The position numbers were made by a program, and so were the translations under genes. This document shows, piece after piece, positions 1,786-14,362 of a stretch of DNA of 64,000 nt. The stretch is from Allacma fusca. Taxonomy: Eukaryota > Arthropoda > Collembola > Symphypleona > Sminthuridae. Positions within the stretch are counted from its first letter, which is position 1, and each line of letters starts with the position of its first letter. The DNA is taken from positions 7,469,060 to 7,533,059 of the forward strand of contig OX359247.1 of NCBI GenBank assembly GCA_947179485.1. Reading direction: 5' to 3'. The notes under the pieces were generated by a model that worked only from the letters and a program-made list of their open reading frames with translations, was not told where the DNA came from and did not search any database.

Positions 1786-3508
1786 CAAAGATGGGTCGCT
1801 TGCCTATATCTAGGCCCTTTTATAGGCACAAATTCTAGGGAGGAAGCAAAGAAACAAGAATCTAGGCTAGGATATAGGCAAGGTTCAATGGGATTTATAT
1901 GCAAATAAAATATTATAGAAAGTTTGGGGAATAAATATAGGCACCTAGAAAATTTAGGCTAGGGGCTTCATAAATAAATTAATGTGAAGTGAGCAGGTAT
2001 GCTACTGATACCGACATGCCGAGTAGGGGTACAGTCATGCAACTGATGCACTGAACAATAAAACGTATTTATTATTATCTACGTATCTATTATATACGTA
2101 TTGTATTATATTTCGAAGAGAAATTTATAATTTTGCATTGGGAAATCCCTACCTTTATACTACAACAATTAGCAATGGTTGTAAAAATGCAGAGAAGTAA
2201 AGCATGTTATAGCACGATTGTTAGGACATCTGGTCGACAATGATGTAACAAATTTTCAGCGTGGAACAGACCAACAAGTAATAAATAAATATAGTACTTA
2301 GGGGCCATTCAAGTAATTCATAACGCAAAATTGGTCAAAATTTCACCCCCACCCACATGGTGTAACGCTAGGGTAACGCTGACTAAACTACCACCTACCC
2401 GACATAACGCGTTGCATGTTTTTTTAAATGCTGCCTTAGGAAATACATTAGATTAAATATTTGTATGACTGCTTAAAGAAAGACTACGATTCATCCGGTA
2501 AAACTAGGTTTATTCAATTTGTGGCTTCAGCCTCACATTCAACAAATGGACTTTTTAACCGGTCACGAATACTTTCAATAACTTCAATGTCACTGTCTGC
2601 AAACCCGTGTACAACACATTCAATAATGTCCTGCGTTTATACTTTCAATTGCTTGAACAAATGAAGTCAGGCAGAATTTACGAAGTAAATTTCCACAGCT
2701 TAAATCTACAGCGTGATAATCACTTCCTTGACCACCCTCCGGGATAACCCGAAGTGGTTCAACGTGCTCCACATCCAATAAATTGTGCCATTTAAAATTT
2801 TCTAATTAATTCAATATATGATGCACAATACTTGAAATCTTTAAGGCGAATTTGGCTTTTCCATGGACAAATGTTTTTAAGGGTATATGTGCAAAATCGT
2901 ATATGTATGAAATTTACGTTACGTGTATCTATAATAGGACCACCAACTCGTCGTAAACTTCGAAGCTATAAAGGCGAGTTATTTAATTTTCAGAGGTAAG
3001 AAGGATCATCAAAACTGCGTTACGTACCAAGGTGATTTACCACCCCCCGATGCACGTAACAAAGCATAACGTTAGTTTGTTAGACCACCCACTACCCCTG
3101 CGTTATGAATTACTTGAACGGCCCCTTATTATTAAGTACAGGATATTTCGACATACATGCGGGGTTTTCAGTTTTCTGTAGGAACTTCAAGGGTGTACTT
3201 ATTTAGGGAAGCAGTAGTTTTGAACTTCCTAATAGGGTATAGTTGCATGATACTCCCAAAAGGAATATTATAAGAACATTTATAGGGATATATGTAGGTA
3301 GGGCATCTCCCTGTTTCCTATATTATACGAAGGAACTTCGTGTTGCTTTAGCCTTTATATGATTTAAGGAAGGCGTTTGGTTGAACATTTCCTTAAAAGG
3401 GGGAGATAACTTGACGAGGATAATAATTATAGGCAAATAGGGAGTCGCATTATGTTATTTTAATTATAGGAAGGAGGTAGGCTAAGTGAATGAAAAGGCC
3501 CATCTTTG
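1786..3508. mobile_element. hAT-like element with TAGGC words, split by a nested element
   Basis: The left end is CAAAGATGGGTCGC and the right end GGCCCATCTTTG, forming inverted termini. The flanking 8-mers are ATTACAAC (1778-1785) and GTCACAAC (3509-3516), which match at 6 of 8 positions. The interior is rich in TAGGC / ATAGGC words. A second element (2301-3125) is inserted inside it. No transposase frame is present. Confidence 0.65.
2301..3125. mobile_element. PIF/Harbinger-like non-autonomous element, nested
   Basis: Inverted termini of 26 bp (2301-2326 and 3100-3125) differ at one position. They begin GGGGCCATTCAAGTAATTC on the left and GGGGCCGTTCAAGTAATTC on the reverse of the right. 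They are flanked by the trinucleotide TTA on both sides. A 3-bp TTA duplication with GGGGC termini is the PIF/Harbinger pattern. It sits within the hAT-like element at 1786-3508, so it is younger. Its 67-codon open frame (2461-2664) has no recognisable domain. Confidence 0.75.
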
Positions 3509-3516
3509 GTCACAAC

Positions 3517-4792: not shown

Positions 4793-6676
4793 CAAACATG
4801 GGCGCCTGCCTAGATTCTAGGCCCTATAATAAGCTAAGGCTCAAGGATGCTGCAAGTTGGGATATAAATCTAGGCGAGGTTCTAGGCTGGGCAATCACCA
4901 CTACAATATAGGCTTAGGGACAATCTAGGCTATTCAGATATTTCCGAACAAGGGACTGGGCTATTCAGGCAGGCTACAAGTTCGTTCAAGTAAAGGCTAG
5001 GCATTAGTGGCGAGCGGAATATTCTCAAAGCACGAATTGGTAAGGGATATGCCACAAATGACGTCATGCATTTAGTCACTATTGTCCGTGCATGATTTAA
5101 CAAGATGTACTCAGTCAGTCCCTTCTTCATAACATGACGTCATTTTCTGCACCTATTTAACCCAGACCCTTTGTTACTCTTATATAAAATCCCGTGCGAG
5201 TTCGTAAGATTAAATAACGACCTCAGCATCCAAAGTCATTAGTTCCGCAACTAATTCACAAAGTCCCCGAGTTATATCGGTAAGTAATATAAGGGACAGA
5301 GTAACTGACTCATCTTAGTACTTCTCAACTAAAAGTTATATACGTTCTGTTTAAATTTCCTCACATCATACGGCTGAGCCGATCTTCAAACAAATAACGT
5401 CGGTTGAATAGTTTTTTACCGAAGGAAATCAAAATGGTCACATATAAACACATGGTAATACCTGCATCATCGGCAGATGGCGCAGTCACCGTTTACCAAA
5501 CTGAAAAACTGTAATGGTTCTTATTGCGGACCGATAGTATCAAATACGATCCTAAAGTTGGTAGGGTCATCCATCTAACCTTGGAAAAGTATGTCACACA
5601 TAAAGCACATTTTTATACATCATAGAAATCTATTGATCTATGCATTCTATCATTTGCTCTCGCAATGGAAAAACCTTGCGATACGATTTTCGCACGAATG
5701 GATGGGTCAATTTTTGACGGGAGGAGCCGTGGGTAATAAATCATTCGATAACGAGACATGCAAACTGTTTGGGTGATTTGAGAGTAAATTGATTTTAAAA
5801 AATTTCCAGGTGAAATTAGTTTTCTATTGTAAAATGTTTTTGTTACATTATTTTAAAATTATTGCCTGAATGAGTGGCCCACTTCAAATTACCTTTGACC
5901 TCATTGTTAATCTTCTACTTTTATTACGGTTATAACCGATGGCTAATAAGAAAATCTCGATGGTGAAAACAAGGTAAACAAAGCCGATTAATTGTTGCCA
6001 ATTAATAATGTTTTTCGCAAACGAACTCAGTTTTGAATAATAAAGCACACTGTGGCATTAAACAATTCCCATGTATACATACACATATGACGTCGTATAC
6101 AGTCAGTCAGCCTTCGTTGTGACGAGGAATGATCATGCAGTCAGCCAGTCGTAATTTACCAGGTTTTTTGATGACGTCATTTGTGGCACATCCTTAAGGA
6201 CAGGATTACAAGATCTTTGGGAAAACGTTTGCAGAGACGGACTGAGAATGAGGCGGGAATTACTTGAAACCAGTAATTACCAGAGTGAATGAACATGTAT
6301 ACCACAGTACATACATAATGGTCCCGTATTTATTCCCACTGGATTATGTAGTTTATAAAAGAATTAATCAAACCCATACATTGGTTTCCAATTGCATGTG
6401 ACACTGCATATGGCTTGCACTATCTAAAACTCACAATTATATCGCCTATATATGGGCTGGCAAAGCGCTGCCAGAAGCTATACAGCAAATATAGGCAGGC
6501 AAGCAATGCACACTAGGACAGATATAGGCTAATAGGCAGGCAGTGAGAGTACTTGACCCTTGGTATCAAGGCTCTTCTTTTCGTTGAAACAACCTATTAA
6601 CCTATATAGGATGGCGATATTTTTAGAAAGAAAATAGGCAGGCTTTACGCTTAGGCGCTTCATTTGCCCACCTTTG
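4793..6676. mobile_element. hAT-like element with perfect 8-bp duplication, split by a nested element
   Basis: The ends are CAAACATGGGC (left) and GCCCACCTTTG (right), which are inverted with three mismatches. Both sides carry ATGTCAAG (4785-4792 and 6677-6684), a perfect 8-bp target duplication. Interior sequence next to each end is full of ATAGGC / TAGGC words. The middle (5044-6194) is a separate nested insertion. No transposase was found. Confidence 0.8.
5044..6194. mobile_element. Element with GGATRTGCCACAAATGACGT termini and TAA duplication
   Basis: Inverted termini of about 23 bp, centred on GCCACAAATGACGTCAT, lie at 5044-5067 and 6171-6194. TAA flanks both ends (5041-5043 and 6195-6197). 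A 3-bp TAA target suggests a PIF/Harbinger-type element. The palindrome TGACGTCA (CRE/ATF-like) lies inside each terminus. A TATATAAAA sequence near 5180 is followed by about 100 bp of less AT-rich sequence, but no long reading frame. It is nested in the hAT-like element at 4793-6676. Confidence 0.7.
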
Positions 6677-7500: not shown

Positions 7501-7700
7501 TCCCAGAGATGCGCAAAGGAAATAGCCTTCCTTCAAGCCTTCGAAGGCGAAAATTCAGTAAAAATTTCCCCTTCAACATGTCGTAAAATGAAGCCCTCTA
7601 AAAAATCTGCCTTCCTTCACCCTTCCTTCCAAAATACATGCGCTCATTTTTGCCTTCAGCCTTCTTCTAAAAATAGCCTTCCTTCAATGTTAAACTACAA
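7500..7700. repeat. CCTTCCTTC / GCCTTC-word block
   Basis: Repeated GCCTTC, CCTTCCTTC and GAAGGC words include a CCTTCGAAGG palindrome. The block resembles the word-filled hAT interiors elsewhere in the window, but I could not define termini or a duplication. It lies directly upstream of the MADF-like gene. Confidence 0.4.
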
Positions 7701-7743
7701 CCCGCTTAAAAACGTTTTGCACCAGCAGGATTCAGTGCAGTGA

Positions 7744-10700
7744 AGGGCAAGAAGTAAACTAAGAAGTAAAAGCAAAACTTACTCTGACCTTCGAGGAAAT
7801 CTCCGTCCATCAACACCACAAATTAATACTAATGTTATGAGCTCCCAAAGTACAGAATCAAATGTATCCTCTGCCACTCCGATTGCCACAATTGGTTCAT
7901 CAATTCATGTTACAAATTCATCCGTAAGTACTAGTGCCCCTCATGGGTACAGGTACTACCCGGGTATTTGGGTACAGGTACAGGTAAAGGTAAATACTGG
8001 GTAATATTTTTTTACCCAAACAGAATGGGTAAATTCTGGGTACAAGCCAATTTTACCTAAATATTGGGCACATTTACGGGTAAAGGTACAGGTACAAAGA
8101 AAACATGAAACGGGTTTTACCTGACAGGAGCAGGTACAGCTTCAAAAGTACCTGTACCCGTTCAGAAAATACCTGATTCATACAAGGTACTTTTTTATTA
8201 TCTGCTTGCGTCCTCTATTGCATAAAACTGAATTAAAGTGGTTCTTTCCATGACATTCTCGTGCCACTCCATTCAACAGTCTTCCACTGCATGCTCGTTT
8301 CCGTGTCATGAAATGAGATTCCTTATAAACGTGTTCTAGCATTCCACCGACTGACAATTCCATAGGAGATACCATTAGAAAATGCTTCTGTCTGAAAGCA
8401 TGGACGAAGATCAAATGTGCAGAGTTCGGAAGTACTAAAATGACCGCGATTGCAAGATTGATGGCTGGAAGCTCAAGTAGTTATTAATTTTAGCCGTATT
8501 CAATTTTTTGAAAAACATGATGCAATAGATTATAGGGGAATAAATTGGAGCACATTATTAGAATAATTTTTTTAACTGAATTCGCATCATCATAAAAAGT
8601 ACCCGGGTAGGTAAAACAAAGTACCTGGGTAAAGGTAAAAATTCGGGTACTTTTTGGGTATAGGTAATTTTCAGGAACAGGTAAAAGTTAAAAAAAAAAG
8701 GTTTGGGTACAGGTACCTTCATTCAAGTATTAGGTACTTCAAAGAAGGTACAGGTAAAGGTACAACATACTGAAGTACCCATATTTGGGTACAGGAACAG
8801 GTACAGGTACCACGTTTTAGTACCCATGAGGTGCACTAGTAAGTACATTCCCAAGCAAAACCACTTCACCTCAAGAGAAGGTCATAACTCCGGCTGCATC
8901 ACCAGGAACTGTAATAATTATTCCCAACCGAATTAATTCGACTTCATTAGGAAAGATCACTGAAGCTTTAGAAGCTATTCAGTTAAACTATGGAAGCGAT
9001 GAAGATGATGAAATCAGTGATCCAGTCCCGTATGCTCGAAGTGCTTTGTACATTAATGATTCTGAGTTGGAGAAACTCGGGGATACGTTAATGCATATAG
9101 ATGATGATCTCTGTTTACTTGAGTCTACTGAAAGTTACGCCGAGTCATCCGACTCCGAAGATCTGTTTAGCTTCGATAGTATAGAACAGCCACATCAAGA
9201 AGTTCCTCCAGTAATTCCAAATACCGATTCCCCACCTCCCAGCCCTGTCGCTGGACCCTCTACTTCTCCATTGGACATGCCACCACCTCAAGCTAGGCCT
9301 CCCAGAACTCCTAAAAAGTTGAAGCCAAACAAAAAACCAGAGAACTCACCAACTCCTGCTAGGAGAATATATGCTCCTGATCCACAGCAAGAGGAAGCAC
9401 TTGCTTCCATAGGCATCCACCGTGATCCCTCAACACTGAGTACCCTAGAACTTGCAAAAAATCCGCACGCTCTACAAGCAGGGATTTATTTTTGCAACCA
9501 ACTCATGAATGAAGAAACCACAGTTGAACAGTTATCAAAAAAACTTCAGTTAACTACCAGTCAAAGTAGTACACCTTTACTACCACCTCCAAGACCTCTG
9601 AGTCCAGATATAACTTTGGTCTGTTCAGTCAGAAAAGCAGTGAAGCGAGGTATGGATGCAGCAGCTTCAAGTTCCGTACCAAAAATCAAACAAGAGTGTA
9701 AAGGCAGGAAACAGATAGATTCGGATGATGCTGAGAACGGTACAAATCATGATGCAGCACTCCCTCTTCTCCATGAATTGATTCGTAGGAAGCAAGATAT
9801 TGAAACCAGGCAGCTACGGTATGAACCTCAAGGTGAGCTAGGTTTTCAAATTATCAACATGGTGAAAGAGATCTCTTATAGAAATATCTACACAAACAAG
9901 GATATGTTTGCAATTTTCTGATGTTCTAAACATAATTGTTACTCAGGGGACGAGTATGATCTTTCTCAGTCGTCCGTATGCATGACGAACCTATGGCATG
10001 ACTATCCTGACAGAAGCAGAAGCTACAAGAAAAGGGCTAGGTGAATTTCTTTTCATACTTCGAAATACATATCAGTTACTGCTAATTACCTATATGTAGT
10101 GGTAAAATAGTTAATATTACATATTAGGAATTAATAAATAAATTAAATACTTGCTCAAACTGTGTAAATTCTTTGATATTCACATAGACGAATCCAAAAA
10201 CTGACGGAGGCTGAAATTACTCGCTTATTTAATGACAAGGTTAACAGTCTTCGTAATATGATACAAGGTCGGATAACGTGTCAGAGATTCGATGTAAGTA
10301 AAACAGTTGTCATTATGAATATCTGCAATTTGTTAGTTTTATTTTTTTAGTACAGATTTTAGAAGATTTATTATTTCAAAAGTTTGCGTCTTATTGTTTT
10401 CAGCTCTGGAGAGCCAGAAGATTACCCGATGGTTACAGTAAGATGCAAGAACTCCGGAATATAAATGTTGTTACCCCGTTTACAGAAACACAGGGCAATT
10501 TCATAATAACACTTCTTGAGAGAGAGTTCGTGACACACGTTACTAACAGTCTGCAGGTGAAAGCAGTTAACAAGTTCTTGGATTGGCTTTTTAGTTGTAT
10601 TATGTTGGCATTGACCAATACTAGGGTTTTTACCGTAACGATGGTTTTGAAAGTCTTGGTTTCTTTGGTAGATTGGGGAGTTTTTAAATTATGTCCTACT

Positions 10701-10803
10701 TCCTGAAGCACTAATAAGGATTTACGCTGAAGTAAATGGAAGGTCGTACGAACAAGCGGAACATGAAATGCGGAACGGCGCAACTGGAATTGAGCTGGAG
10801 TAG
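7744..10803 (+). CDS. MADF-like nuclear protein, multi-exon, interrupted by a hAT element
   Basis: Supported exons are about 7744-7923, 8847-9832, 9947-10040, 10188-10293, 10404-10556 and 10672-10803 (stop TAG). The last four junctions are canonical GT-AG with agreeing phases (1, 2, 0, 0). The N-terminal half is low-complexity: Ser/Thr-rich, then an acidic stretch (ESSDSEDLF), a Pro-rich linker and a basic PKKLKPNKK / TPARR patch that could be a nuclear signal. The part spanning exons 9947-10293 (NLWHDYPDRSRSYKKRAR, then LTEAEITRLF and VNSLRNMI) resembles a MADF/Myb-SANT-like fold (Trp-His-x-Tyr, later LR). The C-terminus contains VLLPEALIRIYAEVNG and ends GIELE. The first listed exon opens after an in-frame TGA at 7741, so its true start or upstream exons are unresolved. 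A 907-bp hAT-like element plus duplication splits the coding exon, in the same frame on both sides. Reading straight through it hits stops. Family assignment is tentative; exon structure is firm from 8847 on. Confidence 0.7.
7932..8838. mobile_element. hAT-like element (GGGTACAGGTA words) inside a coding exon
   Basis: The termini TAGTGCCCCTCATGGGTAC and (reverse of right end) TAGTGCACCTCATGGGTAC match at 18 of 19 positions. GTAAGTAC flanks both sides (7924-7931 and 8839-8846), a perfect 8-bp duplication. The first and last 200 bp are filled with GGGTAC / AGGTA words. Element plus one duplication copy is 915 bp, a multiple of three. The host gene's frame is open and in phase up to the left duplication and from the right one. 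Confidence 0.88.
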
Positions 10804-13020
10804 AAGAATAGCTCGTAATAACAAGTTTATGTTATTTCAGTCATGCACGGTTCTCCTCTCTCCGTGAACGGATATTAAGAGAGGGTTTTTAAAAATGAGG
10901 TTACACTTGTCTTTGTAGTGCGATAGTTAAAGTCTGAAAAGTATAACTTGGGTGACAGTGCTAGTTGTAAATAATAATGTTACACTGTATGTGTCTTAGT
11001 TTTGATTTAGTATGCTGTTTATAAAACTTACAGTGACAATTCAGCTAATGAATTTAGTGTAAACACTAATTCATACATCATTCTGAAAATAAGTACAAAT
11101 TTACGTTGCATTTTTTTAGTAATCAAGTAGTATTTAATGAGGGATTAGTTAAAGAGAGTGAGTAATGGTCTTGCTAAACCACTTCCTCCGCAGTTTTATC
11201 GTATTTATTAGATTTATATTAAAATCAGAGACCTGAACATTTATGCTTAATAATGTCGGACCTTTAGGAAATAGTTACGAAATTCTAGAGACTAGTACTA
11301 GATTTGGATGAATTATTTCCTATTATTATTATATTATCACATACAGTTATACAAGCTGTACGAATTTGTAGCAAGTTTATGCAAAAGTACCGGGTGCTGG
11401 GTACGAATTAATATAGGTAATAAAATTATAAAATGTTACCAAAAATCTTAAATTAAGTTAGTATTTGTACTGAAACTCAATTTTAAGTTGAAGACATGTA
11501 CTTTTCAAGACTATATGAATTTAACAGTGCCGTAAAATATTTTTGGAGTTCCGCTTCGGTAGCATTATATATTGTGCACTGTGACGTTCGTTATCGTCCC
11601 TTAGTCTCCAAGAGAACTTCTAATATTTTCGAATTATTAAACAGTAAGATATTTTTCTGTTTGTTTAATATGCTTGATAATTTACTTGGTTCATTACATC
11701 TTTGTTTTTACCAATCTGGACTGGGATCGTAAACAATTTTATATTGTAATGTGTCGTAGATCATGTGCTAGAAGTAACCCAAACGTTTATTACTTCTTCC
11801 AGGGTACAGGAGAAATGAGGCTGATGAATGGTTATCAGAACGGATTTATAAACCACGGTTGACATTATGACTTCGGTTGGTTGACGTAATTTTTCAATCC
11901 ATAAATCAATTTTGGCTGTCGTTTACATATATATTAGTGAATATGCTCACGTTAATGAAAATATTTCATTGCAGCACACTTTGAAACGTGGAATTAGAAG
12001 CTAATAATAAAATTCCAACTTCGGATGGTCGACGTTAAACAGATTTCATGATAACTAAATAAACCTTGAGATGATATTTATTTCATTGGAATCACTGAAG
12101 CCGAGAAGCTTTGTCACGCAAAGAATACAGTGCGAAATGAATTTCGCAAGTCAATTGCAAGCAGGTTTGTTACTATTTTACTCGACGAATAATAATCTTA
12201 TGAAACATCGGTGAAATTGCTCGAATTTGACGGGCACTGGTTTTATTATGTGCAGCTGTAATTCGACTTAGAAGTAAAACTTCTAATAATTTCTAACTAA
12301 TCTATATAGTCACGAATGCTACTCTGAAAATTCATTGTGCACTTCTGATTTCCATGGATGGATGTTCGAGTAAGTTGGAAGGACGAATGAGTTTCAAATG
12401 TGCAATATCTATAACTTATTGTTAGGCATAGCTATTTTTTTAATATCTTCATAATTTGAGCAGAATTCTGCCTGCTTTTGATATTATTTTTCACTCCTTT
12501 CTTAAACTCATTATGAACATTTTAAGGGTCTGTTTTTCCATTGTGCACAACGATCATTTACTGCTACTCTGTTATTATATTATTATTTATGTTATTGTAA
12601 GTAAAATTTAATTTAATTTCAAATCAATTCTCATAATGTATTTTACGTAAGTAAATTATATTGTGTGTGCGATATATGGAGTCTTTGAAAGTTTTGAAAT
12701 GCATAAATGAAAATTTCTCAAGAGTTCATTTGTAATGTTGATCTTAAAAAACCTTTTATATTGGAGTACCGTACGCAGCAGTAAGATTTACCTGTTTATT
12801 TTTTCGGTTCTGTGGGGTTTTGATTTGCAGACTGCGTGTGGGTTTGCCTAAATTATAACCCATTACTTGAACATTCTAAAATAGGCTGATATGAGCTGCA
12901 ATATAATCAGTACAATCTGAATGGTACAATTTGTAGTTGAAACATTACTTTTTAGAAATTATAAAAGTTTCTTCACGAAAGTTTCCTGGTTACAATCAGG
13001 TTTTATTTTTGACTTGTAAC
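10804..13020. other. Intergenic region with a possible MADF-like exon relic
   Basis: This lies downstream of the MADF-like gene. A short open segment at about 12091-12168 reads ITEAEKLCHAKNTVRNEF, resembling LTEAEITRLFNDKVNSLR of the upstream gene, and ends at an AG|GTTTGT donor-like site. Otherwise the stretch is AT-rich with no supported gene. Confidence 0.4.
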
Positions 13021-14362
13021 TAGAGTATGTCGATTGGAAATGCCCTGCTTTTTTTGCCCGCCCAGCTGAAAATGCCCATAATGCCTGCCCACATGCCCAA
13101 TTATTGGACACGTGGGCAACTTTTGAAAATGCCCTGTTTTTGGGAAGTTTGGGAAGGGCAAGTTGTGCATTTTAATGGGTCAAATTCTTTGTGTTAATGA
13201 AAAATAGTTTTTGAGTACCAAAATTGAATCGCTAGCTTAGATTCAGAATATAGATATCATCCAAATGTACAGGAGTACAGCGATAGAATTAATTACAGAA
13301 ACAATGACAGCCAAATAAATTTAATTTCAGTGACATGAGATCATGTAATTTATTACTCTTATGAAAATAAATGTTACAAATACATCACTGAAAGGCGGTC
13401 AAAAATATTATTTTCTTACAGTGAAAATCTCTGAGGCTAAGGGACCAGTCAAATTTTCTACGGTGGTAAAGCTGAATTCCATGCTCTTTTTATTGTACAC
13501 CAAAATTGTTTGCAGTTTGCAGCTTCAAAATAGCATGATTGACATGCAGAATAAAAATATTATGAATCGTAATTCCTGGAAAAATGACTCGAGTAAAAAT
13601 CAATGTACGTCCTCTCACAGGTCCTCCAAAGATTGTTTTTTGCAGTTTTCATATGTGAAAAAAAATTACAGTACGGGTCCAAAGTTTAACAGAAAACACA
13701 TCTCTGATCGACATCAGTAATATGCACACACGTATAGGCGTAAATTCATATGTCCAGCATGCAAGAAGTTCATTTTACGTCATCTGCAGTTTGGCAAAAC
13801 AGTTTCTAGAATAATTTAACTATATGTATAAGCATTGTCATATCATGCACAGGTGTTTCACAAATTCTAATGTCCAATTGGGCATTTCACATCCAAGCGC
13901 ATTTATCTAAACAGTTAAATTAACTTGCATTCGACAACATTAATTATTATTACTGTAAATTATTATTAGCAGTACTTCGTCCACTGTTATTCCACCTTGA
14001 CCCTTATAACTAATTTTTAGGACCTCAACGTGGATCAGTAGTAAATTAAAAATTCAAGCAATAAAAATGTTCCTACATAAACCAAAACCACAGCAATGAA
14101 AATACCCACCAAGGCATTTTCGTGCACTTTTCCTGCAAAATTGTCAAGAGATTTACAAATCAACAGCCGAATTGTATAAATTGTTCAATTTTATTCCACG
14201 ATTTTGCCCAAATTTCCCAATTTGCCCTCGAATGAAAATGCCCAAAATGTCATTGCCCAATATGCCCTATTCTGCCCTTCTCCCCCTCAGACGAAAATGC
14301 CAGGTCATTTTGGGTGGGCAAGTTGCTCAAAATGCCGGCCATTTTCAAATCGACATACCCTA
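13021..14362. mobile_element. hAT-like element with ATGCCC words
   Basis: The termini are TAGAGTATGTCGATT (left) and, reversed, TAGGGTATGTCGATT (right). The flanking 8-mers are CTTGTAAC (13013-13020) and CTAGCAAC (14363-14370), matching at 6 of 8. TGCCC / AATGCCC words cluster just inside both ends. The 119-codon frame at 13361-13720 has no recognisable domain. The same words recur at 57470-57600. Confidence 0.7.

Follow-up and report, generated by a model that had tools for sequence, protein, structure and literature searches.

The interruption of a coding exon by a 907-base element in the analysed stretch of Allacma fusca DNA (the window, 64,000 nucleotides, C10:7469060-7533059) is very probably an ordinary, recent gene-breaking insertion of a non-autonomous hAT-like transposon in one copy (copy A) of a host gene with two paralogs on the same contig. 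It is proposed that a recently active, non-autonomous hAT-like transposon of about 907 bases entered the coding exon of copy A by means of a transposase, presumably of the hAT type, which would have been supplied from elsewhere. The exon appears to have been cut with an 8-base stagger at GTAAGTAC, as shown by the exact duplication of these letters and by the empty site in two paralogs. A copy A transcript that contains the element would hit stop codons or be mis-spliced, so that the insertion most likely disables copy A, and it would be tolerated because two longer uninterrupted copies lie nearby.

The left target site duplication GTAAGTAC (7924..7931, + strand) is original exon sequence and is matched exactly by the right copy (8839..8846, +). 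The element itself (7932..8838, +), which is delimited by its termini, its family copies and the duplications, adds up with one duplication to 915 bases, a length divisible by three, and this is the insertion unit that the initial annotation had described. The ends of the element form a terminal inverted repeat of 19 bases, TAGTGC(C/A)CCTCATGGGTAC, in which 18 bases are matched and one is mismatched. The left repeat TAGTGCCCCTCATGGGTAC (7932..7950, +) corresponds to the exact termini of the family in the genome, and the right repeat TAGTGCACCTCATGGGTAC (8820..8838, - strand) was assigned by the pairing of the terminal repeats. Allowing for up to three mismatches, the terminal motif occurs in the window only at the two ends of the element, and shuffling expects 0.01 occurrences. 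The right boundary CACTAG, which had been singled out earlier as a possible acceptor, is real and consists of the end of the element and the first G of the duplication. Inside the termini lie subterminal GGTACAGGTA-type repeats, on the left at 7965..8100 (+, direct repeat families D1-D3) and on the right, of the same kind, at 8622..8809 (+, direct repeats), and the left ones include the donor-like sequences CAG/GTAAAG (7984) and AAG/GTAAAT (7990). The longest inner frame of the element spans 100 codons on the minus strand, and searches of Pfam and the PDB with these 100 residues gave no match. An RNA gene inside the element was considered and rejected, the one Rfam hit (E 0.77, under the gathering score) being taken as chance. 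Repeat blocks were seen by eye in the window at 240-490, 1210-1480, 1790-3516, 4795-5010, 7503-7710 and 13020-14350, with short and degenerate motifs (GTACCCG, CTTGAACTTGA, AGGCCTA, CCTTCCTTCAA and TTGCCCA); positions 320-490, which are part of the first block, are 66% similar to the element.

A DNA search with the element through the genome (392,743,791 bases, 91 contigs) returned 1,490 first-look candidates, of which the best 40 were scored and show 88-100% identity over most of the length. The exact termini, with any letter accepted at the variable position, are found 487 times genome-wide (236 forward, 251 reverse), and the reversed-pattern control gave 0. The sample used here consists of the window copy and 39 further copies, read together with some 1.2 kb of flanking sequence, that is, the 40 copies most like the one in the window; loci L002-L008 are the same places as L009-L015 and were left out of the counts, and L038 and L040 have an equal duplication and similar flanks and may be one event that was copied. 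Exact 8-base duplications flank 29 of the 40 sampled sites, including the window, the other 11 being damaged or different. These duplications favour nTnnnnAn: of the 29, the second base is T in 21 and the seventh is A in 23, and 16 have both letters. Features that mark hAT elements, namely 8-base duplications, the nTnnnnAn preference and short terminal inverted repeats of 10-25 bases (here 19), are thus all present. The nearest of the 39 compared copies (C10:2279206, L009) differs from the window copy by 1 substitution and 1 gap, and the second nearest (C9:20912351) by 3 substitutions and 3 gaps. Because only one substitution and one gap separate it from its nearest copy, the insertion in the window is judged to be very recent and the element very young.

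As judged by the 8-base duplications and the termini, the element is a member of a non-autonomous, hAT-like family. The label rests on these features because no autonomous partner emerged among four longer pairs of like ends, 1.9-7.0 kb apart, which were read; exact duplications are found in three of them and the longest frame has 155 codons, and by eye nothing in the four is transposase-like. A stretch of 5,957 bases (L069, 21-5977) carries the terminal repeats of the element and an exact duplication CCAAGAGG, has a longest frame of 111 codons and is apparently a larger non-autonomous relative of the window element. Dimerisation domains of the hAT type are common in the genome (150 of 860 candidates were scored, and the matches listed are all over the cut-off), and none of them was tied to the ends of the element.

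The host frame had been described as open on both sides and closed by straight read-through, which is borne out. When the flanks are joined with one duplication the frame is open from 7744 to 9832, and the first stop encountered on reading through into the element is at 8002-8004. Searching the genome at the protein level with the translation of the joined flanks led to two paralogs, B (C10:7439426-7440598, +) and C (C10:7370240-7371412, -), which are located 38 and 107 kb from copy A. Each carries TCCGTAAGTACAGTCCC once and has no insertion, which amounts to an empty site in a stop-free stretch of 1,029 codons; B and C thereby supply the empty site in relatives or paralogs by which a recent intron is recognised. 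The comparison shows that the insertion struck exon sequence, and it argues strongly that GTAAGTAC was no native splice donor. The earlier claim of a hAT-like insertion in a coding exon is therefore upheld by the two empty paralogs and the 8-base duplications of the family. Its companion, that the duplication is a splice donor, survives in so far as the duplication resembles one, but the target was exon and not a native donor, GTAAGTAC being present once in both empty paralogs. The donor-like appearance arises because the exon happened to contain GTAAGTAC.

The left remnant of the host exon (7755..7931, +) is 95.3% identical over 171 bases to paralogs B and C, with nothing upstream. The homology of copy A to B and C starts only at about 7755-7761, and the repeat sequence before this point is unrelated. 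A search for the missing 5' part of the exon in the rest of the window and in the neighbouring stretches L066 and L067 (7454501-7459060 left out) did not find it, which marks copy A as a 5'-truncated duplicate in a three-copy gene. The left open segment, in addition to what the initial annotation had noted, is the whole remaining 5' side of the window gene copy. The right part of the exon (8847..9832, +), supported by its open frame, the paralogs and the donor score, ends at the donor AAG/GTGAGC and is followed in a manual model by exons at 9947..10040, 10188..10293 and 10404..10556 (all +), for which boundaries were placed by eye, with splice scores, and which are identical to B. The last exon, which contains the stop (10672..10803, +; boundary by eye, splice score), has weak similarity to PWP3A-B_C (Pfam E 0.0075) and RTC4 (E 0.21), both under the curated cut-offs. 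The 1,029-residue stretch of paralog B had no match in Pfam, and the host gene gave just two hits in the PDB with E about 0.8. Upstream of paralog B (L064, 1-1675) there is a perfect inverted repeat pair of 709 bases, which is matched once by the flank of paralog C, and a Chitin_bind_4 cuticle gene is found near the insertion. A heterozygous inversion has been reported for Allacma fusca chromosome 3 at about 5 to 45 Mb (PMC10427803), and the window lies inside it.

Copies A and B differ between about 7761 and 9150 by 20 substitutions and 2 whole-codon indels, with no frameshift or stop; over 159 codons dS is 0.077 and dN 0.034, which gives a ratio of 0.44 (Fisher test for unequal rates, p 0.10). 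From 9151 to 13923 they are letter-for-letter identical over 4,773 bases (in B from C10:7439912). This sharp switch at 9150, from about 4% divergence to identity, points to a recent conversion, exchange or duplication with B, or else to an assembly artefact. Because the frame is open on both sides and free of frameshifts and stops relative to B, copy A may have been a coding copy until not long ago and could even now yield a shorter protein. The element may in turn be a recent lesion in copy A that arose while the copy was still open, since the frame came through the older divergence intact and the element is much more recent. The truncated copy could also represent a short gene with a promoter or start of its own downstream of the element, in which case the insertion would lie outside the coding part. 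The open right part and the four open downstream exons, together with the identity to B beyond 9150, would suit such a gene, but a recent duplication or conversion explains this identity equally well, and the explanation is considered unlikely.

It is quite unlikely that the insertion is a newborn intron, as had been put forward originally, which is spliced out in frame and leaves a functional host copy with some codons added or lost. In-frame removal, if true, would make this a very young animal intron of transposon origin with two uninterrupted paralogs as built-in controls. Read from the letters of the locus, the frame kept on both sides, the donor-like CAG/GTAAAG, the acceptor at 8906 and the existence of in-frame joins count against gene breaking, and the host frame was kept until recently. 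Precedents are found in the hAT element Ds of maize, which is reported to be spliced (cited in PMC2836002), and in hAT-like MITEs of carrot that are reported to form splice variants (PMC12595863). The in-frame, stop-free joins named earlier do exist (7964 to 8840, 7924 to 8878 and 7924 to 8881), with the correction that the left donor, which had been placed near 7962, is located at 7964. Neither the splice matrices nor the U1 end had been trained on this species, so that the scores, including those which speak for splicing, are rough. The manual host model has four donors scoring 2.4 to 7.4 and four acceptors scoring 0.6 to 4.4, and the three joins score 0.0 and -4.7 (7964/8840), 0.3 and -4.8 (7924/8878) and 0.3 and -1.2 (7924/8881) for donor and acceptor. 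Better in-frame pairs are present at 7990/8881 (3.9, -1.2), 7964/8906 (0.0, 2.5) and 7984/8881 (3.7, -1.2). However, acceptor 8881 is below all four acceptors of the host model, and the exonic acceptor 8906, which outscores three of them, can be joined in frame to weak donors only.

Dinucleotide-shuffled elements placed at the same site match or beat the best in-frame pair in 51 of 300 cases; donors were looked for within the first 40% of the element and the 60 bases preceding it, and acceptors within its second half and the 68 bases that follow. For simulated insertions at random points of the host exon, the observed score is reached in 63 of 300 cases when the element is in sense and in 4 of 300 in antisense; the GGTACAGGTA repeats provide donor-like sites in sense, which is the one point in favour of splicing. 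Overall, the splice signals at the insertion are no better than chance. Removal of the element with no net change to the exon is possible only where AGGT occurs across the duplication and the bases next to it. None of the 29 duplications allows this in sense and one does in antisense, and at the window target GTAAGTAC such removal is impossible. In addition, the host copy lacks its 5' part. The low-scoring splice pairs, the target that does not permit removal without net change and the 5' truncation together speak against the newborn intron of the initial annotation. A more specific form of the intron reading, in which the truncated copy is transcribed and the element is removed in frame through donor 7984 or 7990 and acceptor 8881, is very unlikely.

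Joined-flank frames were determined at the 40 sites of the family, and the one in the window is the longest with 420 codons. It is the only one above the 99% level (206 codons) of a null from randomly chosen positions in the flanking sequence of the copies, for which the 95% level is 145, and it falls between the 95% (339) and 99% (424) levels of a null from random positions in the window, which holds this exon and others. L021 (189 codons) and L047 (156) exceed the 95% level of the flanks, L047 being damaged and without an exact duplication. The copy L019 (C10:54035457-54036363) interrupts an exon that encodes an astacin (Pfam E 1.6e-17), and its insertion is found directly after the HELVHAIGFWHEQ motif of this exon; five astacin relatives nearby with 74-90% identity are open across the site and one with 71% has two stops. 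L021 (C8:30594322-30595219) interrupts a gene from a large family, and three relatives, 83-86% identical, are open across the site. L009 (C10:2279206-2280117) may touch coding sequence, for which Pfam gave no match; there the duplication TTGAGTGG is followed by TAAGAT, so that the right boundary reads as a donor-like GTAAGAT. The three clear exonic insertions (window, L019 and L021) are suggestive of tolerated gene breaking, which fits because all three have neighbouring copies that are open at the site, although these are three cases among the best 40 copies.

The same copies bear on the possibility that the family is introner-like, i.e. adapted to make introns, with a duplication that systematically supplies a splice site. 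Introners of Aureococcus with 8-base duplications are reported to add codons (PMC9860276), and the excess of sense over antisense scores at random exon sites goes in the same direction. Exonic sites are few among the best 40 copies, however, and comprise the window, L019 (supported by Pfam) and L021 (supported by its gene family). The best in-frame splice pairs differ between the window and L019, the two exonic copies in sense orientation: in L019, which is oriented as the window copy, the best pair is elsewhere and its sum is below zero. The best pair of L021 also has a sum below zero, and because this copy is antisense it tests the sense-orientation introner reading less. Splicing without net change is ruled out at nearly all duplications as described above, and a GTAAG, GTGAG or GTATG core is present in 1 of the 29. 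GTRAG directly precedes a family terminus at 3 places genome-wide where about 2 are expected (roughly estimated from how often each base occurs in the 29 duplications); at the other two sites, no right end was found in L073 and no left end in L075. A regular supply of splice sites was thus not found among three exonic copies scored with these untrained matrices. The earlier suggestion of an introner-like origin, given this lack of a regular splice-site arrangement and the few exonic copies among the best 40 sampled, is highly improbable. That GTAAGTAC was already the start of a native intron, into whose first bases the element inserted, can practically be dismissed, and a native donor as target was rejected: U1 pairing at 8839 (-7.0, with the untrained U1 end) is within the range of the host-model donors (-6.8 to -9.6), but both paralogs run open through the site for 1,029 codons, and on either side of it A and B differ by indels of whole codons.

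As a gene-breaking insertion the case in copy A is an ordinary one. Its value lies in the combination of a young and numerous family, a chromosome-scale assembly and an exon that survives without the insertion in two nearby paralogs. The exonic members of the family could be used to estimate the frequency with which new hAT-like insertions are spliced, this being the proposed first step in the birth of introns from transposons.

With its 8-base duplications and terminal repeats of 10-25 bases the element resembles non-autonomous hAT elements of insects and hAT-like MITEs, and its nTnnnnAn preference is like that reported for the hAT element Hermes (PMC2803484). In length it can be set beside the BuT2-derived short copies of Drosophila willistoni, which are reported to be 532-927 bases long (PMC3942097). 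A point of difference is that no autonomous element with these ends was seen among the four longer pairs. The insertion in a coding exon recalls Ds of maize. Splicing of Ds was reportedly described by Wessler in 1987 and 1991. The removal of Ds is shown by experiment (as cited in PMC2836002), whereas the splice signals of the present element do not exceed chance. Transposon-derived introners have been described across eukaryotes, among them some whose 5' splice site comes from the duplication and some that add codons (PMC9860276). The element shares with the introners derived from DNA transposons the duplication and terminal repeats, the exonic insertion and a duplication that resembles a 5' splice site, and differs from them in that no regular splice-site arrangement was found, that exonic copies are few among the best 40 and that its removal by splicing is hypothetical. 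In Daphnia pulex, recent introns are reported to stem from the repair of staggered double-strand breaks, as seen in population data (PMC4202315). The site in Allacma fusca is like these gains in being a candidate recent intron gain of an arthropod with direct repeats at the site, and unlike them in that a transposon insertion gave rise to the repeats and the intron is a candidate proposed from its letters.
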